The notes under the pieces: model-generated
The model's database searches: none
What the model was told of the DNA's origin: nothing
What the model saw: the letters and a program-made list of their open reading frames with translations, nothing else
IMG/VR virus record: IMGVR_UViG_3300034061_001941
Span: 1-21,291 of that record
Length of the DNA: 21,291 nucleotides
Reading direction: 5' to 3' (one strand)
Origin: a virus
Shown here: positions 8,414 through 19,972 of the stretch, one piece after another
How the letters are laid out: every line of letters starts with the position of its first letter
Numbering within the stretch: position 1 is the first letter of the stretch
Program-made: the position numbers and the translations under genes

Positions 8414-8800
8414 ATGTCTTTATATGGAGTTTTTGGTACAGATATTGATTCGGCTCTAAACTCTTTAAGTAACCCAATACCTCTTCAAAGAGATATGTAT
8501 GGGCAAGTTGTTATAAAACTTCCAGTGGTTAATAAAAATGACTACACAATGCATATTGAATTATTCAATGGATTGTTGTGGTTTCATACAGACATTCGTA
8601 AATGGACTGGCACAGTAAAGGATAGTTTTATAAAAGACTTAGATTTACTGCAATACTTAATAGAGATTCCTCTGGTAGCAATTAGTCGAGTTTCTAATAA
8701 AAAGTTAATTAAATTTGGTGAATCTATTGGTTTTAAATATAAACAGGATTTCTTAGGAAAAGATAATCATATGTATGTAATTTATACAAGGAGTCTGTAA
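8414..8800 (+). CDS. Small GNAT-like phage protein (128 aa)
   Basis: The C-terminal motif NKKLIKFGESIGFKYK (residues 95-110) matches the last helix and strand of GNAT acetyltransferases ('N..a..f...lGF'). The preceding segments (HIELFNGLLWFHTDIRKW, then DLDLLQYL and IPLVAISRV) follow the order seen in short phage proteins with this fold. The usual acetyl-CoA loop (Q/RxxGxG/A) is not visible, so catalytic activity is doubtful; it may be a degenerate or structural GNAT-like protein. The ATG directly follows the upstream stop and has a GAGGAA site. Its own stop overlaps the next start (TAATG) and an AAGGAG site lies inside its 3' end. The fold assignment is moderately sure, the function unknown. 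Confidence 0.65.
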   Translation: MSLYGVFGTDIDSALNSLSNPIPLQRDMYGQVVIKLPVVNKNDYTMHIELFNGLLWFHTDIRKWTGTVKDSFIKDLDLLQYLIEIPLVAISRVSNKKLIKFGESIGFKYKQDFLGKDNHMYVIYTRSL

Positions 8801-9264
8801 TGGGTGGTACAGTAATATCATCAGCATTAGTAGCAACTGTTGCTGCAGCAGCTGCAGCAACAGTTACTGGCGCAAACACAACAGAACGAACTGCAAAATC
8901 AATTGTTTGGCCAAATGGTGGTGTTGATCAAACTGCAGAACTTGCATCATTAAGAACTGCTATCCAATCTGGCAATACTATATTTGCAAATGATCTTAAT
9001 AGAGTAGCAACTTTAATTAATAATATGAATGGACATTATCACACATATGATGATGCAAAACAACTAGCTACCTACGGTAATAATGGTGATAGAACTAATT
9101 ATATTGTGACTATAAGCACTGGTGTTGCTCAGGACACTACCAGTGCTCCAACAGACACAGCTTCTAATACTACAATTACGGCATCTAGACATAACGAATT
9201 AAAAGATGCAATTAATAATATTAGAAACCACTACCATGAAATTGGTGATAACACATCACTTTAA
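8800..9264 (+). CDS. Virion protein with two His-x-His modules (154 aa)
   Basis: This is probably a small tail or fibre-tip protein. The N terminus has a short hydrophobic Ala-rich stretch (residues about 6-24), which could be a membrane-like or fusion-type segment. Two 26-residue repeats follow, residues 60-85 and 125-150. They share the pattern T-I-x-A-x3-N-x5-INN-x3-HYH-x3-D, so both end in a His-Tyr-His motif. In phage fibre and spike tips (for example T4 gp37) HxH motifs from three chains bind iron; by analogy these may be metal sites in a trimer. The same module occurs a third time in the 67-aa Cys-rich protein at 10215. A strong AAGGAG ribosome site precedes the ATG. The structural role is inferred. 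Confidence 0.7.
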   Translation: MGGTVISSALVATVAAAAAATVTGANTTERTAKSIVWPNGGVDQTAELASLRTAIQSGNTIFANDLNRVATLINNMNGHYHTYDDAKQLATYGNNGDRTNYIVTISTGVAQDTTSAPTDTASNTTITASRHNELKDAINNIRNHYHEIGDNTSL

Positions 9265-9288: not shown

Positions 9289-10206
9289 ATGGACATTAGA
9301 AGAGTATTTTTAATTCAGACAGAAATGGGTCACCCAGATCCTTGGGATGACTCTCTCAATATGGCTAATACTGAAGTCAGTCCTGGACTTGGTGCTAGCA
9401 GCAATCCTTCTGCTTATTCAAGCATGATTTCATTTTTTCAAAGAGCTGATAACAGATTTTCTATTAGTCATTCTGTTTATCCAGAAGCACATATAGTTCT
9501 AAAAAGACCATTTAGTGTCCACGATCCATTAACTGAAGTATTATTAAATTTTGATAAACTTGCAGAATTAGTAGATTCTTCAGTGCATGGTGTTGTTTTA
9601 CTTGGAGCCATTCTTGGCGACACTATATTATCACAACAAGATGTTATCGGTAAATCTTCTTTCTATCATCGCAAAGATGGAGAAGTTCAAGACATGATTT
9701 CTGGTGAAACTTTTAAAGATCCCAAAATTATTCCATGGATGTTTTGTTACAAAACCAAAGATTTACCACTATACTATATGGTGTTAAATCCACACTCGGT
9801 TCAATGTATTTCTAACATTGAAGGTGTGTATAATGGAAACCATGTATTTACAGTTTCTAATCACTTAAGAAATTTAAACGAAATTATATTTAAACCTTCT
9901 CTAAGTAAAAATGCTAGGGTTATTGGTGACCATAATATTGTAGTTACAGGTGACGAGTTTACAATCGAACCTTTTGGTACATGGTTTGTAAAACGACATT
10001 TACCAGAGTTCTTCAAATCTGCAAAGGTAAAAATAAGCACAAATTTTGAATATAGATTTGAGGGAAATAAGATAGTAGTAAATACCCTAAATAAAGAAAA
10101 GGGTTACATCTCTCTAAGATGGAATACTGGAACTGTTATGGATATGTCTTTCCATACTAGTAAAAATAGATTCCTACAAGAGTTTATAGTTGATGTGATT
10201 CGATAG
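9289..10206 (+). CDS. Hypothetical phage protein, probably structural (305 aa)
   Basis: I do not recognise a family. The product starts MDIRRVFLIQTEMGHPDPW and is a mixed, likely soluble protein without signal peptide or membrane helix. It has an N-terminal half with scattered aromatic and Asp residues (NMANTEVSPGLG, then a Tyr-Pro-Glu-Ala-His segment), and a beta-rich C-terminal half with motifs such as PFGTWFVKRHLPEF, TNFEYRFEG and GYISLRWNTG. The last of these looks like an immunoglobulin-like or jelly-roll strand pattern, but I cannot name it. Only two cysteines are present, so it is not an iron-sulfur enzyme. It lies between the double HxH protein and the Cys-rich 67-aa protein, 24 bases after the former and 8 bases before the latter, so all three are probably one operon. 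A link to the enzyme cassette downstream is possible but unproven. Confidence 0.7.
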   Translation: MDIRRVFLIQTEMGHPDPWDDSLNMANTEVSPGLGASSNPSAYSSMISFFQRADNRFSISHSVYPEAHIVLKRPFSVHDPLTEVLLNFDKLAELVDSSVHGVVLLGAILGDTILSQQDVIGKSSFYHRKDGEVQDMISGETFKDPKIIPWMFCYKTKDLPLYYMVLNPHSVQCISNIEGVYNGNHVFTVSNHLRNLNEIIFKPSLSKNARVIGDHNIVVTGDEFTIEPFGTWFVKRHLPEFFKSAKVKISTNFEYRFEGNKIVVNTLNKEKGYISLRWNTGTVMDMSFHTSKNRFLQEFIVDVIR

Positions 10207-10214
10207 GAGAATAT

Positions 10215-10418
10215 ATGGGTATAGAAAATACAAGTACAGCAGATGTAGGTTCCGATGTGCCTGCAAAGGCAGCTGGTGATGCTGTTACTGCAGATACATT
10301 TAGACAGATGCTCGATGTGCTAGAGCAATTGGCATCCCACAACCACATTTTTTATGATGATTATAACACTGTTTGCGAATGCCAGTGTCAATGTGCATGT
10401 AGTCGTGGAACACTATGA
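10215..10418 (+). CDS. Cys-rich 67-aa protein; candidate substrate (RiPP-like precursor) of the radical SAM cassette
   Basis: The N-terminal two thirds hold a single HxH module (residues 23-49, AVTADTFRQMLDVLEQLA, then H42-x-H44 and Y47-D48-D49). It aligns without gaps through the HxH to the two modules of the 154-aa virion protein. The C terminus is striking: five cysteines at every second residue (C54, C56, C58, C60, C62), followed by SRGTL. On a beta strand all five would face one side. A good TAGGAGA site precedes the ATG. The stop overlaps the start of a radical SAM/SPASM gene (ATGA), so the two are translationally coupled. Small Cys-rich C termini next to radical SAM/SPASM enzymes are typical of thioether-forming RiPP systems. 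Substrate status is inferred; a simple metal-binding fibre tip is the main alternative. Confidence 0.75.
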   Translation: MGIENTSTADVGSDVPAKAAGDAVTADTFRQMLDVLEQLASHNHIFYDDYNTVCECQCQCACSRGTL

Positions 10419-12175
10419 ATGAACAACCAATTGTATGGTTAAAAACAGAAACTCAGAAGAAAAGATTCCAAGACCATAAAGCGTCTGTTTCTACTTCTGA
10501 AGATGGCACACTGCAATTTGAAAGCCACAATATTATAACTCCCAAAGGACTTGAGAAAACAAATAAACTAATCTCAGTTGTCCCAAAACCAGAAGAAACA
10601 ATCGTTCCACTATCATCTGTTTCTTATCTCTTTCAAGAGTTAAAACAGATGAATCTAATTCTAACAAATGCCTGCAATCTTTCTTGCAGTTATTGTTACG
10701 AGCAACACAATAAAGACTTCGGCAGATTTACAAACGAAAGTCTTTTATCTGCATATCGATTTCTAGTAGAAGCCAACAATCGCCAAAAGAAAGTTTTTAA
10801 CTTTTTTGGTGGAGAGCCACTCATTCACAAAGACATTATCTTAGACTTTGTTCGTAAAAACGAAAAAGAATTACAAGAAAATGCTCGTGGTGATTTCAAT
10901 ACCGTAGTTGGTATTGTTACTAATGGTCTGCTATTAACAAAACCTTTAATTGATGAATTTTTATCATATGACTTTACATACATTTTAATCTCTTTAGATA
11001 CAGATCGTAGTGAAGTTGATCATCGTGAAATTGGTCAAGATAAAATTGATCAATTAATGGAGCATATTAAATATATGCCAGATGGACCAAAGCAAGAAAA
11101 ACGAGTAACTATTCGTTGTACTCTCGCCAGAGAAAATGCACCATTCTTTACAGAGTTTGCAGATAATCTTTATGAAAGAGGTATCCGCAGAATGGTTGTG
11201 CATCCACTAGTGTTAGATTCTAGTAAAGGATTTATCCGTTGGAAAGATGAAGAATGGAATAAACTTCATAAAGACATTCTTGCAGTTCTTGACAAATATA
11301 CTGATATGCAGATTCACTTCTCCGAGGGTGTTGGTCAAAAAGGTGAAGAGAATTGTATGATCGGCTCAGACATGATTGCTATTGATGCGTCTGGAGACTT
11401 CTCTGGTTGTTACTTCTTTACAAATCAAAAAGCCAATACAACATCAGACACTATTCTTGGAAATCTATTTCACAGAAACATCTATATCGATAGATATAAA
11501 ACATTTCAAAAAGCATATGCTGAGATGTTTGAGATGGAAGAACAGTGTCAGAAGTGCGATTATAAAAATGCTTGTTATCAGTGCCCAGCTGGTAATTTAG
11601 ATACTGGAACTCGTATGTTCCGACCAGATGACATGTGCCAGAAGATTGTAAAATTATACATCGACTTGCAAGAAGATATCTCAAAGAAACAGTTTAAAAA
11701 GAAGTATGAATCTATCTGCTCTGCATTAAACACAGAGGGAGAAAACATCACCTTTGTGAAGGGATTAAGTTATCTAATGTTTTACTTTCATTTCAACTAT
11801 CATCCTAAGTTAGAGATAGTACACGATGGAGTATATGAGATAGATGACTACAGGAAGATGTTATCGTTATGGATGAATATCATAAACGGCAACAACACTG
11901 TTGATTTTACTGCTAATGAGTTTACAAGTCAAATAAAAGATGCATTAACAGACGAAACTGTTGAGATAGATGATTTCTATTATTTTATCGTTCAGCGAGG
12001 TAAACTAGCTCCAATTGATAGAAAAGCCAAAGGCGAAACATCTTATCAAAGAGCATTCTTTTTATCATTATTGCATATGATTATTTTACAATCTATGCAT
12101 AAAACATTTGAGGGAACTTTTAGTGAAAGACTTGTCCATGATGCCAGTGAACTTGGTAAGCACAAATCCGCTTGA
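10415..12175 (+). CDS. Radical SAM/SPASM peptide-maturase-like enzyme (586 aa)
   Basis: The enzyme cleaves S-adenosylmethionine with a [4Fe-4S] cluster to modify a substrate, by family most likely a peptide. The cluster motif is C87-x3-C91-x2-C94 (ACNLSCSYC), followed by GGEP at 132-135 (SAM binding) and a VTNG strand near 168-171. A SPASM domain for two auxiliary clusters follows: C314, then G327-x4-C332, C378-x2-C381-x5-C387-x2-C390, and C408. The third spacing is CX2C rather than the usual CX3C. Residues 1-80 precede the barrel, and about 160 residues after the SPASM domain (430-586) form a helical extension I cannot name. Together they make the protein longer than a plain maturase. The ATG overlaps the stop of the Cys-rich 67-aa protein, which makes that protein the prime substrate candidate. 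The enzyme class is sure; the substrate is inferred. Confidence 0.9.
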   Translation: MNEQPIVWLKTETQKKRFQDHKASVSTSEDGTLQFESHNIITPKGLEKTNKLISVVPKPEETIVPLSSVSYLFQELKQMNLILTNACNLSCSYCYEQHNKDFGRFTNESLLSAYRFLVEANNRQKKVFNFFGGEPLIHKDIILDFVRKNEKELQENARGDFNTVVGIVTNGLLLTKPLIDEFLSYDFTYILISLDTDRSEVDHREIGQDKIDQLMEHIKYMPDGPKQEKRVTIRCTLARENAPFFTEFADNLYERGIRRMVVHPLVLDSSKGFIRWKDEEWNKLHKDILAVLDKYTDMQIHFSEGVGQKGEENCMIGSDMIAIDASGDFSGCYFFTNQKANTTSDTILGNLFHRNIYIDRYKTFQKAYAEMFEMEEQCQKCDYKNACYQCPAGNLDTGTRMFRPDDMCQKIVKLYIDLQEDISKKQFKKKYESICSALNTEGENITFVKGLSYLMFYFHFNYHPKLEIVHDGVYEIDDYRKMLSLWMNIINGNNTVDFTANEFTSQIKDALTDETVEIDDFYYFIVQRGKLAPIDRKAKGETSYQRAFFLSLLHMIILQSMHKTFEGTFSERLVHDASELGKHKSA

Positions 12176-13241
12176 TAAGATAAAACTAATTGTAATATAT
12201 CTCGGTAACACTTGTAATTTTGATTGTGTTTATTGCGATAGGGGTTACATTGACAGTCTTGGTGGGCAGAATTTAAATAAACCAACACTGCTTGAAATGA
12301 AAGAGTTTTTCGAATGGGCAGAAACTCTACCAAACCAAATACAAAGAATATCATTTCATGGCGGAGAGCCACTTCTTTTTATTAAAAGAATGGAAGAAGT
12401 TATGGAGTGGCTATACCCAATTGCAAAAAGAAACAATTGGAAAGTTACACTCACCACTAATGGTTCTTTAGTTAAAGAATGCCAGTGGTTTTTTGAAAAA
12501 TATAAAGATGTTTTATATGCAACAATTAGTTACGATTTTATGTATCAAAAACAAAATCGTGAAGAGTTTGATGTATATGAAATGGCAGAGGTTTTAAATA
12601 AAACATGTGGTCAATGGCAGTGGCAATTTGTGTTGCCCATTGATGATCCTAAATCGTTTTCATTTGAAAATATTAAAGAGATTGTAAATACTTGTTATCG
12701 AACCAACTGCAGAGTTATAAACATAATTCCGCTTCGCCACAAACGAGGTAAAGATAAGTTTGATGTAATTATAGATCGAGTTAATCTTCCGCAGTTCTTG
12801 GAAGCGTTTTTACAGTTTATACAAATACTATATGTAAAGAAACTAACAGTGTTTATTGATGGGTGTTATGTAGATGTTGATAAAGCATATTTTGCAGAAC
12901 ACAATAAATTAATCTTATCACCTGATGGATTCATCTATCCTGAATTTGATTTCTTAGAATACAAAACTATAAATGCAAGAATCGGTGATTGGAAACAAAA
13001 ACAGATTTGGCGAAATCAGGGAGACGCTGGCAGGATTCATGATTCTTGTATGTCTTGCGAAAAACGACCGAGTTGTGGATTGAAGTATTTGTATCATCTG
13101 TTTGATGTGAACCCACAAGGGAGTTGTAGAGAGTTTTATACATATATGGATTATGTTATTATGCACAACGCTAAACTAAATCAAAAGAAAAGCGTATTGG
13201 AGTGGATTGGTATAAAAGAGGATTTTGAGATAAATCAATGA
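12138..13241 (+). CDS. Radical SAM enzyme with half SPASM (twitch-like) domain (367 aa)
   Basis: The start at 12138 (ATGATG) is chosen because the radical SAM barrel begins soon after it; a TTG 30 bases upstream is open too. No strong ribosome site is visible, and the gene overlaps the previous one by 38 bases, so coupling is likely. The cluster motif is C26-x3-C30-x2-C33 (TCNFDCVYC), with HGGEPLL (GGEP at 75-78) and LTTNGS near 105-110. In the C-terminal part a 'LSPDGFIYPEFDF' segment holds the place where the first SPASM cysteines normally sit, but has none. Only C304-x2-C307-x5-C313 and C330 remain, so a single auxiliary cluster is expected. Function is probably a modification step acting with its neighbours; the substrate is unknown. 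Confidence 0.85.
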   Translation: MMPVNLVSTNPLDKIKLIVIYLGNTCNFDCVYCDRGYIDSLGGQNLNKPTLLEMKEFFEWAETLPNQIQRISFHGGEPLLFIKRMEEVMEWLYPIAKRNNWKVTLTTNGSLVKECQWFFEKYKDVLYATISYDFMYQKQNREEFDVYEMAEVLNKTCGQWQWQFVLPIDDPKSFSFENIKEIVNTCYRTNCRVINIIPLRHKRGKDKFDVIIDRVNLPQFLEAFLQFIQILYVKKLTVFIDGCYVDVDKAYFAEHNKLILSPDGFIYPEFDFLEYKTINARIGDWKQKQIWRNQGDAGRIHDSCMSCEKRPSCGLKYLYHLFDVNPQGSCREFYTYMDYVIMHNAKLNQKKSVLEWIGIKEDFEINQ

Positions 13242-13726
13242 TTAATACAGAATTGTGTTATAAAAAACTGGGTGCATCTACTCACATAGTACATCAATTT
13301 GAAAATAATAAAGAACATTTTGAATATGGCGATTATTATGGATTTTCTGTTTGTCAACTACCACTGGAAGTAATATTACAGGAACCGATATTACAAGATA
13401 TAAATCATTCTCATAAAATTAAGAATGGTGGTATTATAAAGTTACAACCAAATAGATGTTATAAGTGGCATCAAGACGCTGTTCGTGGTGTATGCATTAA
13501 TATGTTATTAGAACATCAAGATAGTTTTGTATTGTTTGGAAATAGTGTTTCTGACTCTGAAGATCAGTTTGATATAGCTCTTTTAGATTATAACATTGGT
13601 GAATTATATTTGTTTAATAATCAATGTATGCATACAGTTATAAATTTTAATGAACCAAGATATATGTTTACTCTAGAGTTTGAAGAAGATAAAAGTAGTT
13701 TAACCTACGAGAATTTTTATGAATAG
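13238..13726 (+). CDS. 2-oxoglutarate/Fe(II) oxygenase-like protein, Asp/Asn beta-hydroxylase type (162 aa)
   Basis: The protein has a jelly-roll oxygenase signature. WHQD gives the iron ligands H78-x-D80. After a beta-rich stretch, GELYLFNNQCMHTVINFNEP provides the distal H132, and R141 in EPRYMF is the likely 2-oxoglutarate-binding arginine. The G-E-L-x-L-F...H-x-V-x-N...R order is typical of aspartyl/asparaginyl beta-hydroxylase-like enzymes, though this one is short. By family it would hydroxylate a protein or peptide side chain using O2. The start overlaps the previous stop (ATGA) and the stop overlaps the next start by eight bases, so it belongs firmly to the cassette. Hydroxylation of the Cys-rich protein or a fibre is a plausible role but not shown. 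The oxygenase fold is moderately sure. Confidence 0.7.
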   Translation: MINTELCYKKLGASTHIVHQFENNKEHFEYGDYYGFSVCQLPLEVILQEPILQDINHSHKIKNGGIIKLQPNRCYKWHQDAVRGVCINMLLEHQDSFVLFGNSVSDSEDQFDIALLDYNIGELYLFNNQCMHTVINFNEPRYMFTLEFEEDKSSLTYENFYE

Positions 13727-14792
13727 AGACGACTTTGACAACTATGAAAACTTATCCGAATATTGGATGAGGGAAGACGCACTTCGTTCGTTGGATTATG
13801 ATTTATACTTTAGTCTTGGAACAAGATACTATTGCGACGCTGGCTGTAAAGTTTGCTACATTAGAGAAAATTTAAATGAAACAAAACATTTGGATAACTT
13901 TCCAGATGATTTAGAAACTCTACATAAAACATGGTTTAACTTCTTTGAATACTTTGGAGTAGTTAGAACCAATGATGACTTGTATTATCTAAAGTATCAC
14001 TATCCAAAACAATACGAATGGTATAAGAAATACGGTAAACACTTTGAGTTGGGTATTACTGACAACGCTATCTTTAGAACTCTGCAATTAGATGACATTC
14101 AATTGCAAAGCATAGGGGATATTTCTGTAAGCACAGATTTTGTTTCTCAGTTGGGTGTTGAAAAAGTTTTATCTGGCATTAAAGAACTATACGATCGTCA
14201 TGGTGTTAAGAAGATTAAGTATATTGACTGTGGGCATCCAGAACTATTTAAAGAGATTATTGAATGGGCAAACAAATTAGAATTACATAACTGCGTACAC
14301 CACGACTTTAGAACTAATCATCGTGAAGTTTTAAATCACGCATGGGCTGAATATCAAAACACTTGGGTCACTAACGACTCCGAAGGTTTAATGCAAGTCT
14401 ATAGAGAGTCCGTGCATTTATACTATGATAGATTTTATTACTCTTCCGATGATGCCAGCGATTTAACTAAAGAACATTTTTACTCATTTGAAGATACCAT
14501 AAATATAAAACAGTTTCTGTTTAATCTTATCGAAGGTAAACAGAAACGATATTGGGATCTTAGAAATAGACCTATTGAAAAGAAGTTTAGGGACTATTAC
14601 AAAAAGACTCAAGAGTTTGCAGTAAACCAAAATTTTAATTTTATTCCAAGAGTTATGTTTCCTCTTTCTTGCAAATTTTTCTACGAGATGGAAAAACAAG
14701 GGTGGCAACAAACCAAGTATGGTTTATATTTACCAGATGGTGATAAAATAATTTCAATCATTGAACCGAGAGTATATCATGAGTTACGCTAA
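13719..14792 (+). CDS. Atypical radical SAM-like protein without a GGE motif (357 aa)
   Basis: A cluster-binding motif C39-x3-C43-x2-C46 (YYCDAGCKVCYIREN) follows a hydrophobic strand (YDLYFSLGT), as in radical SAM enzymes. The usual GGEP about 40-50 residues later is absent; an insertion rich in Tyr, Trp and Lys (about 60-110) occupies that space. A possible stand-in is IDCGHPELFKEI at 169-180, which reads like the 'GGEPLL' strand and helix, followed by DFRTNHREV in the place of 'TNG'. No SPASM cysteines are seen, and the C-terminal third is basic and aromatic. It may be a divergent radical SAM enzyme or a partner protein that binds substrate. The gene overlaps both neighbours (8 and 14 bases), so it is part of the same unit. 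Confidence 0.7.
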   Translation: MNRDDFDNYENLSEYWMREDALRSLDYDLYFSLGTRYYCDAGCKVCYIRENLNETKHLDNFPDDLETLHKTWFNFFEYFGVVRTNDDLYYLKYHYPKQYEWYKKYGKHFELGITDNAIFRTLQLDDIQLQSIGDISVSTDFVSQLGVEKVLSGIKELYDRHGVKKIKYIDCGHPELFKEIIEWANKLELHNCVHHDFRTNHREVLNHAWAEYQNTWVTNDSEGLMQVYRESVHLYYDRFYYSSDDASDLTKEHFYSFEDTINIKQFLFNLIEGKQKRYWDLRNRPIEKKFRDYYKKTQEFAVNQNFNFIPRVMFPLSCKFFYEMEKQGWQQTKYGLYLPDGDKIISIIEPRVYHELR

Positions 14793-16119
14793 ATTTAAAC
14801 TTAAAGAGTCAGGTAAGATTTTCTATTATAGAAATCTTGATAATAGTCTACATAATTCTGTAGGTGAGATGCTGTCTCTGCCACCAAAAGAGGGTATAGA
14901 ATTTTTTGAGAAAGCCAATTCTCAAAACAACTTCGGTGTAACTCACAAAACAAATAAACCCACAGCACTTCGTATTTTACTTGGACATGCTTGTAATTAC
15001 TCTTGTGGGTATTGCATGCAAAAAGACATTGGTAATCCAGATGAACGACCAGAAAATTTCTGGCTCGAACCATTTATTGAATCTATTGATAAACATTTAG
15101 ATTTAGAACAACTCGAGCGAATTGAATTGTGGGGTGGTGAACCATTCCTTTATTGGAATGATATGATGCCGATTATGAAAAGATTGGATCATCCAAAAAG
15201 ACATTTTTACATATCAACAAATGGCTCCGCATTAAGACAAAAACATGTAGACTTTTTTAAAACTCTACAAGCATCTGTTATGATGGGTATTTCACATGAT
15301 GGTCCAGGACAAGAATCCCTTCGTGGTGAAGATATCTTTATCAAAGAGTCTGTATGCAATACAGTTCGACAACTTGGTGAAATGTATCCAAGAGTTCAGT
15401 TTAGTTTTAATCCAGTAGTATCGGCAACTAACTTTGATCTTTTTGAAATTAATGATTACTTTAAACGAGTTGCAGATCGTCTAGGATTACAGCATGCTAG
15501 GATCTCTTTCGTTCCAGCCAGAATTTATGATGATTCGGATTCAGTAAATTCAGCAGACCATGTAATTAAAGGCGATCTGTTGCCAAAGTTTAAAGAGATG
15601 TGCAACTCTTATATTAAAGAAGCCATCCGCCAGAAAAAAGAAGGTGGCGATAGAATTCTTAATTCAAATATTGTAGATAACGATGTCGGTGTTTTAAAGT
15701 ATGCATCTTTAACTCGTCATCAAATTCCTATTACTATGACCTCCTCTTGTGGAGCAGATTCCGCTGATATTCTTTCTATGGACATTCGTGGTAATGTTAG
15801 ACTGTGTCCACATACTTCTGAGAAGTTTACTGGTGGACATATTAATAATCTAAAAGGTGTAAAGATTATTGGTATGGCTTTAGAAAGAAAGGACACCCAT
15901 TGTTATACATGCCCTGTTCGTAGATTATGTAAATCTAGTTGTCCGATCGACTTTCCAACTGAGGTTTTCTTACACAACTGTCGTGTTGAGAAAATATGGT
16001 TTTCTGCAATTCAACAAAATTCATTCGCTTTACTCTTCGGAGAAGAAGTAGAATTATTAGAAACTGGTTTAGATGAGAATAGATTTAAAGAAGATACAAG
16101 AACATCGATCGCTGCTTGA
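14779..16119 (+). CDS. Radical SAM/SPASM peptide-maturase-like enzyme, second full copy (446 aa)
   Basis: The start at 14779 is preferred to a TTG 18 bases upstream because a GAGAG ribosome site stands about eight bases before it. About 65 N-terminal residues precede the barrel. The cluster motif is C72-x3-C76-x2-C79 (ACNYSCGYC), followed by ELWGGEPFLYW (GGEP at 119-122), STNG (146-149) and MGISHDGPG, a signature of anaerobic sulfatase-maturase-like proteins. The SPASM domain is canonical: C324, G338-x4-C343, C375-x2-C378-x5-C384-x3-C388 and C401, giving two auxiliary clusters. It overlaps the previous gene by 14 bases and the next by 47. With the 586-aa enzyme it forms a pair of full SPASM maturases in one operon, suggesting successive or distinct modifications. 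The class is secure; the substrate is not. Confidence 0.9.
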   Translation: MSYAKFKLKESGKIFYYRNLDNSLHNSVGEMLSLPPKEGIEFFEKANSQNNFGVTHKTNKPTALRILLGHACNYSCGYCMQKDIGNPDERPENFWLEPFIESIDKHLDLEQLERIELWGGEPFLYWNDMMPIMKRLDHPKRHFYISTNGSALRQKHVDFFKTLQASVMMGISHDGPGQESLRGEDIFIKESVCNTVRQLGEMYPRVQFSFNPVVSATNFDLFEINDYFKRVADRLGLQHARISFVPARIYDDSDSVNSADHVIKGDLLPKFKEMCNSYIKEAIRQKKEGGDRILNSNIVDNDVGVLKYASLTRHQIPITMTSSCGADSADILSMDIRGNVRLCPHTSEKFTGGHINNLKGVKIIGMALERKDTHCYTCPVRRLCKSSCPIDFPTEVFLHNCRVEKIWFSAIQQNSFALLFGEEVELLETGLDENRFKEDTRTSIAA

Positions 16120-16831
16120 AAATCATTCGTTGCTTGTAACAAATACTATACAGTCGGTTGAAGATCTTAGGATCTTTATGAAGTATCATGTATTTGCAGT
16201 TTGGGATTTTATGAGTCTTTTAAAGACTATGCAACATAATGTAGTTCCATCTAGTAATTTTTGGTTGCCAACAGAAGGAACTCGTTCAGATATAGCCAGA
16301 ATGATTAATGAGATCGTTTTGTGTGAAGAGTCCGATATTAGTCCAGATGGTAAAAGTTCCATAAGTCACTTTGATCTTTATCTACAGGCTATGTTAGAGA
16401 TAGGGGCAGATACTACTCCTATTAGAAACTACTTAGAATCCGTGAATAAATTTAAGACTCATACTGAGTGTTCCTTTGCTCCAGAAATATCCATGGATTT
16501 TGTTAGTTCTACATTTGATGCTATAAATCGTGGACCACACTGTGCAGCTGCATCTTTTTGTTACGGTAGAGAGACAGTAATTCCCTCTATGTTTAAACGA
16601 ATTTTAAGGCAAATAAATATATCAAATACAGACGCTCCAAAGTTTCACTATTATCTAGAAAGACACATTCAGGTAGATGGTGAAGACCATGGACCAATGG
16701 CAGAAAAGTTGGTTAATTACTTTTGTAAAGATGACCCCTTTTTAATACATGAAGCAGAACAAACAGCGATTGAAGCGATTCAGGCTCGAATCCGTCTTTT
16801 TGATGGGGTCGAGTGTATCCTTTTGTCCTAA
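16073..16831 (+). CDS. DUF3050 protein, heme-oxygenase-like fold, possible di-iron enzyme (252 aa)
   Basis: The segment SVEDLRIFMKYHVFAVWDFM (28-47), the following LLKTMQ, and INEIVLCEESDIS with SHFDLYLQAM (98-107) are the family hallmarks of DUF3050, which I place in the heme-oxygenase-like superfamily. Candidate metal ligands are H39, E80/E85/E86, H99, E167, and the C-terminal helix H198-x3-D202-x3-H206 (RHIQVDGEDHGPMAE). This Glu/His/Asp pattern resembles heme-oxygenase-like di-iron oxidases, enzymes used in peptide and amino-acid modification. The length fits a full-length family member. The gene is the last of the overlapping cassette: its ATG lies 47 bases inside the preceding gene and no other start is nearer. 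Membership is fairly sure; di-iron oxidase activity and its substrate are inferred. Confidence 0.75.
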   Translation: MRIDLKKIQEHRSLLENHSLLVTNTIQSVEDLRIFMKYHVFAVWDFMSLLKTMQHNVVPSSNFWLPTEGTRSDIARMINEIVLCEESDISPDGKSSISHFDLYLQAMLEIGADTTPIRNYLESVNKFKTHTECSFAPEISMDFVSSTFDAINRGPHCAAASFCYGRETVIPSMFKRILRQINISNTDAPKFHYYLERHIQVDGEDHGPMAEKLVNYFCKDDPFLIHEAEQTAIEAIQARIRLFDGVECILLS

Positions 16832-17801: not shown

Positions 17802-17843
17802 TAAAAGGGATTAGACATCATGCATAAAAAGGGGATTAACTGA
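17802..17843 (+). promoter_or_regulatory. Duplicated ribosome site and 7-codon leader ORF before the first glycine-rich gene
   Basis: Two near-copies of an AAAAGGG(G)ATTA ribosome-site block stand in a row, each followed by an ATG. The first ATG (17820) opens a seven-codon frame encoding MHKKGIN. Its TGA overlaps the ATG of the adhesin gene (TGATG). This is either a translated leader coupled to the adhesin gene or the remnant of a local duplication. Confidence 0.4.
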
Positions 17844-18901
17844 TGCCAACAACAGTTCTTAAAGAATTTGTAATTGAACTTCCATCAGGAACTACTGCTC
17901 AAAGACCAGCATCACCAACAGCTGGACATTTTCGTTATAATAGTTCTAAGAAGGGAATAGAATTTTATGATGGAACACAATGGGTCGTTGTTGGTGAGTT
18001 TCTCGCCAGTGGTGGAACTGTTACTGATGCGGGAGGTTATAGAACCCACACATTTACATCTTCTTCATCTTTTGTAGTTACTAGTGGAAGCATAGCTGGT
18101 GAGTTTTTAGTTGTTGCTGGTGGTGGTGGTGGTGGTTCAGGTGGTAATGGTCCATCGTGGTGTGATGGTGGCGGTGGTGGTGGTGCAGGTGGATTAGTTT
18201 ACTCATCTTCAACTACTATCACTACAGGAACTCATGCAGTTACAGTCGGTGCTGGTGGTTCTGGTGGTTCTGGTTCTGGTGGTGGACAAAATAGAGGTGC
18301 CAATGGTGGTAATTCTTCCATTGGTGCTCTTGTTACAACTGCAATTGGTGGAGGTGGTGGGGCATTCGGTAGTCGTGTAACTGATGGTTTAGGATTTGGT
18401 TTGTCTGGTGGTTCTGGTGGTGGTTGTACTAATTATCCTAACAACGGCAGCAATGTTCCTGGAAGTGGAACTGCTGGACAAGGTAATGCTGGTGGCTCAA
18501 GTTCAGGTGACTCGCAATCAGCAACTGGTGGTGGTGGTGCTGGTGCTGCTGGTACAGCTATGCCAGGTGGTACTGGTAATGGTGGCGGAGGAACTTCAGG
18601 TGGTGTTGGATTAGCATATTCGATCTCTGGGTCATCTGTCTATTATGCAGGTGGCGGTGGTGGCGGTTCTGCGGCAAATATTTGTTCTGGTGTATCTTCT
18701 TCATATACTGGGAATTCTGGTGGTAATGGCGGTGGTGGCACTGGTGGGTCTGGTACTGCTAATTCTAATATAACTGCTGGTACTACAAACAGAGGTGGTG
18801 GCGGTGGCGGTGCTAATGGCTCAAATGGTCAGAGTACAAACTTTGGCGGAGCCAATGGTGGTTCTGGAATTGTTATTGTTAAATATGTATATGCAGCATA
18901 A
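17843..18901 (+). CDS. Glycine-rich adhesin-like tail fibre protein, copy 1 (352 aa)
   Basis: The N-terminal part (residues about 15-50) has the phage fibre pattern SGTTAQRPASPT...FRYNSSKKGIEFYDGTQW, followed by EFLASGGTVTDAGGYRTHTF and SSSSFVVTSGS. From about residue 90 onward the protein is dominated by Gly runs (VAGGGGGGSGGNG, AGGGGGGSAAN and others), interrupted by Ser/Asn/Thr loops, and it closes with NGGSGIVIVKYVY, a common end of phage glycine-rich domains. Such domains can pack as polyglycine-type helices and carry receptor-binding loops, as in the adhesin of phage S16. Isolated cysteines lie in loops (PSWCDG, GGGCTNY, NICSG). It is a close paralogue of the next gene, with the same length. 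An AGGGGATTAA ribosome site precedes the ATG. The receptor-binding role is inferred. Confidence 0.85.
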   Translation: MPTTVLKEFVIELPSGTTAQRPASPTAGHFRYNSSKKGIEFYDGTQWVVVGEFLASGGTVTDAGGYRTHTFTSSSSFVVTSGSIAGEFLVVAGGGGGGSGGNGPSWCDGGGGGGAGGLVYSSSTTITTGTHAVTVGAGGSGGSGSGGGQNRGANGGNSSIGALVTTAIGGGGGAFGSRVTDGLGFGLSGGSGGGCTNYPNNGSNVPGSGTAGQGNAGGSSSGDSQSATGGGGAGAAGTAMPGGTGNGGGGTSGGVGLAYSISGSSVYYAGGGGGGSAANICSGVSSSYTGNSGGNGGGGTGGSGTANSNITAGTTNRGGGGGGANGSNGQSTNFGGANGGSGIVIVKYVYAA

Positions 18902-18991
18902 GGGGAATTCAATATGCCTTCTACAATCTTAGGCGAACACTCAGTACTATTACCTATAGGAACTACTGCTCAAAGACCAGCATCACCAACA
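17888..18991 (+). repeat. Direct DNA repeat: tandem adhesin duplication (exact 33-bp block shown)
   Basis: An exact 33-base block (starting GGAACTACTGCTCAAAGACC) occurs at 17888-17920 and again at 18959-18991, at matching positions of the two glycine-rich genes. Further near-identical blocks continue through both genes. It shows a fairly recent duplication or ongoing conversion, and makes recombination between the copies possible. Confidence 0.85.
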
Positions 18992-19972
18992 GAAGGAAGT
19001 TTCCGTTTTAATAGTTCTAAAAATGCAATAGAATTTTATGATGGAACCCAATGGGTCGTTGTTGGCGAGTTTCTCGCCAGTGGTGGAACCATTACTGATT
19101 CAGGAGGTTATAGGCTTCACACATTTACTTCCAGTTCATCTTTTGTAGTTACTAGTGGAAGCCTAGCTGGTGACATATTATGTGTTGCTGGCGGTGGTGG
19201 CGGTGGTTCAGGTGGTAATGGTCCATCGTGGTGTGATGGTGCTGGCGGTGGTGGCGCAGGTGGATTAGTCTATGCCACTGGAGTAACTCTTACCACAGGA
19301 ACTCATGCAGTTACAGTAGGTGCTGGTGGTGCAGGTGGATCTGGTGCATCTGGTGGGCAAAATAGAGGTGCCAATGGTGGTAACTCTTCAATCGGTGGTC
19401 TTGTATCAACTGCAATTGGTGGAGGTGGCGGTGGCTTTGGTAGCCGTTACAGTGATGGGTTAAATTCTGGTTCAAGTGGTGGCTCTGGTGGCGGTTGTGG
19501 TGGTAATGATGGTCGTGGAAGCAATGCTCCTGGAAGTGGAACTGCTGGACAAGGTAATGCTGGTGGGGCAAGTGGTTCATCCCAATCAGCAACTGGTGGC
19601 GGAGGAGCAGGTGCTGCGGGTACAGCTATGAGTGGTTCTGGTAATGGTAATGGAGGCACTTCAGGTGGAGTAGGATTATCATACTCAATTTCTGGATCAT
19701 CTGTCTATTATGCAGGTGGCGGTGGTGGTGGATCAGCCTCTGGATATGGTCCTTGTGGTGGTGTATCTGGGTCATATACTGGTAACACTGGTGGTAATGG
19801 TGGCGGAGGAACTGGTGGATCAGGTACTGCCAATTCAAATATAACTGCAGGAACTACTAATCGTGGCGGTGGTGGTGGTGGAGCCTGTGGTTCTAATGAT
19901 CAACCTAACAACTTTGGTGGAGCCAATGGTGGCTCTGGAATTGTTATGGTTAAATATCTATATACAGCATAA
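18914..19972 (+). CDS. Glycine-rich adhesin-like tail fibre protein, copy 2 (352 aa)
   Basis: This is a tandem duplicate of the preceding gene, again 352 residues, with the same order of segments: GTTAQRPASPTEGSFRFN, FYDGTQWVVVGEFLASGG, the Gly-rich body from about residue 90, and the end NGGSGIVMVKYLYTA. Long identical protein stretches (for example GSGGNGPSWCDG, SYSISGSSVYYAGGGGGG) alternate with changed patches: the first 15 residues, the loop around 195-225 (YSDGLNSGSSGG and GGCGGNDGRG here, against VTDGLGFGLSGG and GGCTNYPNNG in copy 1), and the loop before SYTGN (SGYGPCGGVSG). Changes confined to loops fit receptor-binding diversification. It is 12 bases after copy 1, with an AGGGGAA ribosome site. 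Function is inferred from the family. Confidence 0.85.
   Translation: MPSTILGEHSVLLPIGTTAQRPASPTEGSFRFNSSKNAIEFYDGTQWVVVGEFLASGGTITDSGGYRLHTFTSSSSFVVTSGSLAGDILCVAGGGGGGSGGNGPSWCDGAGGGGAGGLVYATGVTLTTGTHAVTVGAGGAGGSGASGGQNRGANGGNSSIGGLVSTAIGGGGGGFGSRYSDGLNSGSSGGSGGGCGGNDGRGSNAPGSGTAGQGNAGGASGSSQSATGGGGAGAAGTAMSGSGNGNGGTSGGVGLSYSISGSSVYYAGGGGGGSASGYGPCGGVSGSYTGNTGGNGGGGTGGSGTANSNITAGTTNRGGGGGGACGSNDQPNNFGGANGGSGIVMVKYLYTA

Follow-up and report, generated by a model that had tools for sequence, protein, structure and literature searches.

The viral gene cassette described here, which lies in a window of 21,291 nt comprising the whole virus record, probably (at a rough probability of 0.7, estimated from comparative sequence evidence) makes a post-translationally modified tail-tip protein, in which a cysteine array at the tail tip would undergo radical maturation. 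The putative substrate is a 67-aa protein, P67, and four probable radical enzymes, R1 to R4, very likely modify it. All genes of the cassette are on the plus strand. P67 (10215..10418) comprises a variable N-terminus, a helix, an HxHxFYDDY motif (HNHIFYDDY, residues 42-50, 10338..10364), a (CX)5 array with 5 Cys (CECQCQCAC, residues 54-62, 10374..10400) that is the presumed core for modification, and the residues RGTL. It is followed by R1 (10415..12175, radical SAM with a full SPASM domain), R2 (12138..13241, radical SAM with a half SPASM domain), OX (13238..13726, 2OG-Fe(II)-oxygenase-like), R3 (13719..14792, an atypical CX3CX2C protein and probable radical SAM enzyme), R4 (14779..16119, radical SAM with a full SPASM domain), and HO (16073..16831, a heme-oxygenase-like DUF3050 protein). 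The original prediction of P67 and six overlapping enzyme genes was borne out, as all seven open reading frames (ORFs) were found at these positions with successive junction overlaps of 4, 35-38, 4, 8, 14 (or 32), and 47 nt, within its range of 4-47 nt. The start of R2 was placed by alignment at 12138 or 12141 (with an ATG at 12138; a TTG at 12108 is open too), and the start of R4 is probably the ATG at 14779 rather than the TTG at 14761. Two further genes precede P67, namely F (8800..9264, 154 aa, containing two HxH..D modules that are homologs of the one in P67) and G (9289..10206, a 305-aa partner protein), the stop of which is 8 nt upstream of P67. A tail-fibre gene lies downstream of HO, and the wider surroundings encode tail fibres, Gly-rich tail proteins, and a protein of 2079 aa that belongs to PHROG 358. 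Searches of the window for tRNAs and RNA families were negative, as was one of the cassette for a T4-type late promoter sequence.

Linkage of P67 to the enzymes was assessed by using P67, R1, R3, and R4 as queries against 2.9 million viral contigs, which gave 66 dereplicated groups. With R1 orthologs defined by a score of at least 390 bits, P67 was encoded in 37 of the 38 dereplicated viral groups that carry R1, a count made on contigs retrieved with R1 alone as the query. The sole exception (L157) is a contig that stops 642 nt past R1; in L156, where R1 has a similarly truncated N-terminus, P67 is 3.9 kb downstream of R1. The gene orders seen were P67 directly 5' of R1, P67-G-R1, P67 after R4 (L156), P67 and F on the opposite strand (L134), and F between R3 and R4. 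The predicted co-occurrence of peptide and enzymes in other phage genomes was therefore seen in several arrangements, and the coupling of the two is strongly supported by the persistence of P67 with R1 despite shuffled order and strand. The enzymes were not found to be widespread without a Cys-rich neighbour, P67 being present in all 37 evaluable R1 groups. Membership of the cassette had been given as P67 and the enzyme genes; P67 and R1 to R4 stand, and the constant set takes in G and also F, which an HMM search located in almost all cassette groups. At the level of sequence, this distribution shows P67, F, G, and R1 to R4 to be one inherited functional set. Reshuffling in hypervariable host-recognition islands could inflate part of the linkage.

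The layout of P67 is common to 40 homologs, with a variable N-terminus, a helix, HxHxxYDDY, an alternating-Cys array, and usually RG plus two residues. The residues H42, H44, and D48 are invariant (38 homologs). Alternate-position cysteines number 3, 4, 5, and 6 per array in 6, 3, 27, and 3 homologs, respectively (n=40), the P67 of L164 being an outlier with 2 Cys only. The residue after the first array cysteine is E, N, D, or Q in 39/40 homologs, as is that after the second in 39/39, and at later X positions alanine, which has no carboxyl or amide side chain, is frequent. The array cysteines are encoded by a mixture of TGT and TGC codons, and selection on P67 is strongly purifying (dN/dS of ~0.06-0.11 for close pairs); its C-terminal part in the L017/L023/L025 group has 4-6 synonymous changes and zero amino-acid changes. 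The array is not a chance feature, because at least four alternating cysteines occur in 33/40 P67 homologs versus 3 of ~8,600 other ORFs on the same contigs, and all three of those ORFs adjoin a radical SAM (rSAM) gene. Alignment of the predicted peptides thus shows the C-terminal Cys-X array to be the conserved feature of P67.

The HNHIFYDDY motif of P67 is similar in kind to the motif of F, in which H79, H81, H144, H146, and D150 are invariant (30 homologs) and which is linked weakly by blast to an L009 P67. Since F has two HxH..D modules of the P67 sort, P67 resembles one F-type module extended by a Cys-array tail. In the unrelated phage contig L168, HxH modules and a long Cys array are fused in one protein of 207 aa, with an rSAM gene nearby. 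Solved structural relatives of P67 and F were not found. The AlphaFold model of G (pLDDT 85.7) gave no confident match in a fold search against the PDB, only weak ones that include a lambda tail-tube Ig-like domain (prob 0.99, TMt 0.51), and G is perhaps a virion structural protein with an Ig-like beta fold at best.

The HxH and CxC content would also suit plain metal binding. A metal-binding trimeric tip, in which these motifs coordinate an Fe-S cluster or iron, zinc, or copper while the radical enzymes only tune or protect the ligands, and which may imitate a metallophore so as to engage an outer-membrane receptor in the manner of a Ferrojan horse, is an unlikely alternative of appreciable weight. 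The invariant HxH of both F and P67 and the CxCxC sequence, a classic thiolate array, speak for it, as do an earlier proposal of iron-binding tail fibres (PMC11705849) and the IscU or A-type carrier genes present in 5/20 cassette contigs and adjoining the cassette in L004. Metal binding itself, however, does not require four radical enzymes, the clusters of these enzymes account for the Fe-S supply, and Fe-S genes are absent from most cassette contigs. The carrier genes fit a need to supply clusters to many Fe-S enzymes. Fe-S assembly was rejected as a constant cassette partner on the same count of contigs.

The coupling of Cys arrays to rSAM genes was approached by an independent route, in which the collection was scanned for Cys-(K/N/H/Q/D/E) arrays alone. 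This gave at least 120 loci, which were then classified. The test class took in ORFs no shorter than 60 aa whose array lay 20 residues or fewer from the C-terminus and had mainly Asn/Asp as the intervening residues. Among the matches listed, an rSAM gene was near 31/38 of these long C-terminal N/D arrays versus 5/82 other arrays (Fisher p ~6e-17); the latter (5 with and 77 without rSAM) were mostly low-complexity or short frames, and 4 of the 7 rSAM-negative long arrays were relatives of positives and had only short flanks. Because array loci are not fully independent they were counted by sequence clusters, 19/22 of which were rSAM-positive among the matches listed. In the same listed matches the rSAM gene was always on the same strand as the array, at a distance of 3 to 2515 nt. 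Many array proteins are tail fibres, with collagen-like repeats, PHROG tail-fibre matches, and ends of the type ...NCNCNCNC. Arrays alone as the query thus recover neighbouring rSAM genes, which again supports the coupling and makes the phenomenon far wider than the cassette.

Phages with R4 and without R1 to R3 encode a Gly-rich tail protein near R4 (with RLIACGACA...GGGGGGG, CGAC(A)C, or CACACDC), which in L106 carries CQCQCQC. R4 is the enzyme type that the three target architectures found have in common. In the tree built from 84 proteins of the R4 family, which has some long branches and weak deep nodes, clades follow target architecture, and the three architectures need two changes, the minimum. 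The prophage tail locus L163 has an rSAM/SPASM gene beside a Cys-repeat protein, with a TIGR04115 score of 415 against a cut-off of 350, which only this prophage passed among those tested. Gene neighbourhoods show that, across many unrelated phages, predicted tail-protein Cys arrays are accompanied by radical SAM/SPASM genes of the R4 type.

Two phages in culture, JWF and 2-1 of Achromobacter, have the simple form of the system, and their R4-type enzymes share 49% and 47% identity, respectively, with that of L275. The array fibre is two genes upstream of the rSAM gene, the two being gp028 and gp030 in JWF, and its array (NCNCDCNCNCS in JWF; NCNCDCNCS, one unit shorter, in 2-1) runs straight into a Hint domain that begins at the next cysteine. 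Hint cleavage at that cysteine would leave the array as a new C-terminus, like that of the other systems. The full cassette was not found in isolated phages by tblastn with P67, R1, R3, and HO against 50,697 phage records, and a tblastn search of the same records for divergent R1, R3, and P67 relatives gave nothing orthologous.

The small precursor and several tailoring enzymes are the standard layout of a RiPP cluster, and P67 could be a classical RiPP precursor, giving an injected or released toxin or signal and forming no part of the virion. This is improbable, as no leader peptidase, exporter, or immunity gene was recognised among the window ORFs searched, the Cys array is C-terminal on long fibre proteins in other phages, and P67 resembles its neighbour F and is found in tail regions. 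Still less credence is given to the radical enzymes being ordinary auxiliary metabolic or nucleic-acid-modifying genes, with the Cys-rich neighbour coincidental or a hitch-hiker in a hypervariable island. Earlier authors did treat phage radical SAM genes as Fe-S metabolism genes (PMC5332604) or as loose cassettes of host-recognition islands (PMC7029224). Against this, the linkage of P67 and the enzymes survives shuffling, the array-first association is independent of it and is highly significant among the matches listed, and SPASM domains are typical of peptide maturases.

The assignment of two full radical SAM/SPASM proteins and one with a half SPASM domain was upheld by Radical_SAM Pfam matches to R1 (E 4.4e-18), R2 (E 3.8e-13), and R4 (E 1.2e-9) and by the SPASM cysteine sets, of which the seven cysteines for two auxiliary clusters are complete and invariant in R1 and R4, and R2 has only four auxiliary cysteines. 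The best NCBIfam match of R1 was the PapB ranthipeptide maturase (NF047865, E 5e-34), with R1 at 118 bits and R4 at 44 bits, both below the equivalog cut-off of 340; R1 scored 74 bits against the CXXX-repeat target maturase TIGR04115 (cut-off 350). R1, R2, and R4 were far under every NCBIfam equivalog cut-off, and no curated equivalog cut-off was met by any of R1 to R4. The nearest solved structure to R1 is 5wgg (E 3e-18), and R1 carries an extra C-terminal domain of ~160 aa, which is absent from the R1 of L011. R3 (PHROG 36229), predicted to be an atypical radical SAM enzyme, retains C39, C43, and C46 (CX3CX2C) in all 35 homologs and has no Pfam match; it is a probable radical SAM enzyme by motif only. 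No relation of R3 to the R1 and R2 profiles was detected, and a fold search with its model (pLDDT 94.9) gave no confident PDB match, the weak ones being to TIM barrels, one of them a radical SAM enzyme. A viperin-like nucleotide enzyme with a defence or counter-defence role, suggested by matches of PADLOC pVip models to R1, R2, and R4 at 6e-19 to 3e-14, was rejected as scarcely credible on its scores (61, 50, and 50 bits against the NF038283/pVip cut-off of 180), which reflect the common radical SAM core only, and viperins, to our knowledge, are without SPASM domains.

The other two genes encode the predicted oxygen-dependent enzymes. HO was confirmed as a DUF3050 protein (Pfam E 3.5e-77, 259.7 bits against a gathering score of 22.2), with a solved relative (9vwb, E 2e-64). 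OX had only a sub-threshold Pfam 2OG match (E 0.095, 13.5 bits against a cut-off of 27), and its HxD...H...R residues are conserved across three homologs. As HO occurs in 22/37 groups and OX in 3 groups only, these predicted enzymes are accessory. The further tailoring enzymes vary from phage to phage, with a rubrerythrin-like protein in L003 and a B12-binding radical SAM enzyme in L011, L058, and L134.

In the mechanism proposed for radical maturation of the tail-tip array, the helix-HxH part of P67, a sibling of F, would be a virion or assembly module that doubles as the recognition part. R4 would work on the Cys-X array, being the common factor among the target architectures, and R1 to R3 would contribute further changes. 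The most likely products would be thioether cross-links from cysteine to the Asn, Asp, Gln, or Glu side chains between the cysteines, as in ranthipeptide-type chemistry, the bond type being a guess; the Asx/Glx residues next to the first array cysteines suggest thioether acceptors, and PapB- and QhpD-like thioether enzymes use Asp/Glu as acceptors. The DUF3050 and 2OG-like enzymes would provide optional oxidative tailoring. Since no recognisable protease or exporter is in the cassette, the product would stay in the cell and become part of the virion. The stiffened array would form the distal tip that touches the host, tip and receptor being deduced from the position of the arrays at distal fibre C-termini.

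To look for a bacterial origin, 84,980 prokaryote species genomes were scanned with R1, which gave one ortholog, on a contig assigned to Bdellovibrio that has F, P67 (CNCNCNCNC), G, R1 to R4, and HO. These are followed by pilin-like genes, which have S74 chaperone domains and of which one matches a Pfam N-methylation motif, then by another R3 and by metabolic genes. This pilin and fibre setting fits an adhesive tip. P67 was found in 1/66 genomes of the family, and the contig, which is from one metagenome-assembled genome, may be a product of mis-binning or a prophage remnant. The broader proposal is slightly favoured, that in many phage lineages, and in this one genome assigned to Bdellovibrio, where pilin-like S74 genes are close by, dedicated radical SAM/SPASM enzymes convert tail-tip Cys-X arrays (on P67-like modules, Gly-rich tip proteins, fibres, and Hint-processed fibres) into cross-linked or metal-binding, host-contacting structures as an unrecognised class of virion maturation.

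Peptide-modifying radical SAM/SPASM enzymes and the rSAM maturation of Cys-rich targets are well known. No prior report of radical maturation of virion proteins was found in a search of the open literature. If correct, the proposal would describe a new kind of virion maturation, in which host-recognition parts have radical-made bonds that are invisible in sequence. It would also explain the many radical SAM and Fe-S assembly genes of marine T4-like phages, which have been filed as metabolic with their purpose unclear, and would open a large unexplored set of enzyme-substrate pairs in which the repeat substrates vary naturally in length. Its occurrence in simple form in the Achromobacter phages makes it testable now.

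Among known systems, fibres with HxH iron sites, such as the T4 gp37 tip, share the HxH motifs and the C-terminal tip position, and Hint- or S74-processed fibres share the autoprocessing domain that adjoins the array in JWF; we know of no radical enzyme for such tips, which use metals or autoproteolysis only. Radical SAM cassettes are held in a pelagimyophage host-recognition cluster (PMC7029224) and up to 12 radical SAM genes in a T4-like genome (PMC5332604). These are probably genes of the same sort in the same genome region as the cassette, and, unlike the analysis here, the available portions of those papers give them no function and no link to a peptide or tail protein. The TIGR04115 CXXX-repeat maturase of L163 is likewise an rSAM/SPASM protein, whose gene lies next to that of a Cys-repeat protein within a phage tail region, and differs in that its target repeat is of the CxxxC type rather than alternating Cys. 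RiPP clusters in general resemble the cassette in that a precursor gene is linked to modifying enzymes in diverse genomes (here in 37/38 groups). Further parallels are the PapB ranthipeptide maturases (NF047865) and SCIFF maturases (TIGR03974), which have the same rSAM core with a seven-Cys SPASM domain, a small Cys-rich target beside the enzyme, and Asx/Glx near the target cysteines. The cassette differs from these systems in its distance from the family (R1 at 118 versus 340 bits), in having four rSAM-type genes together without export or protease genes, and in its target, a virion-type module bearing a Cys-X array in place of a leader with a spaced core.

The full cassette, comprising the 67-aa Cys-array protein P67, the HxH-module protein F, the partner protein G, R1-R4 and the accessory HO, was found in L171 (1971-9326) and L176, from a Bdellovibrio-assigned contig, and the genome carrying it is apparently cellular. 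There, the cassette is followed by pilin-like genes bearing S74 chaperone domains and by a second R3, the atypical CX3CX2C protein. In some phages the cassette set is flanked by B12-binding radical SAM enzymes (L011 11367-13217, L134 15391-17283, L058 5247-7334), and a rubrerythrin-like protein is encoded between F and G in L003 (6448-7236). Genes for the Fe-S carriers IscU and A-type occur near the cassette or elsewhere on its contig in L004 (15408-16489) and in G078, the contig of L155 (23649-25639). The R3 gene of L010 (8998-10187) and both the R1 and R4 radical SAM genes of L145 are broken across two frames, reflecting sequencing error, decay or frameshift.

Two 352-aa Gly-rich paralogs lie in tandem in the window (17843-19972) and resemble poly-Gly tail-tip proteins. 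In L063, L067, L069, L078, L088, L089, L095, L098, L099, L101 and L103, which have an R4-type radical SAM gene without R1-R3, a Gly-rich tail protein with an RLIACGACA-like motif at its N-terminus is encoded near R4. Cys-Asn/Asp arrays form protein C-termini in L223 (7450-7969) and L234 (2369-4331) with no radical SAM gene within the stretch examined around each, and the enzyme may be encoded elsewhere.

In the Achromobacter phages JWF (L178, 6802-8253 and 8959-10323) and 2-1 (L179, 6727-8169), a Hint autoprocessing domain immediately follows the Cys-Asn array of a fibre protein, a radical SAM gene lies two genes 3' of the fibre gene, and array length differs by one unit. On a 543-kb virus contig (L164, 5478-13195), five radical SAM genes adjoin the gene of a P67-like protein that is 127 aa long and contains 12 Cys. 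In the tail locus of a prophage from an isolate genome (L163, 8851-10876), a 230-aa Cys-repeat protein adjoins a radical SAM protein that scores above the cut-off of TIGR04115, the CXXX-repeat target maturase family.
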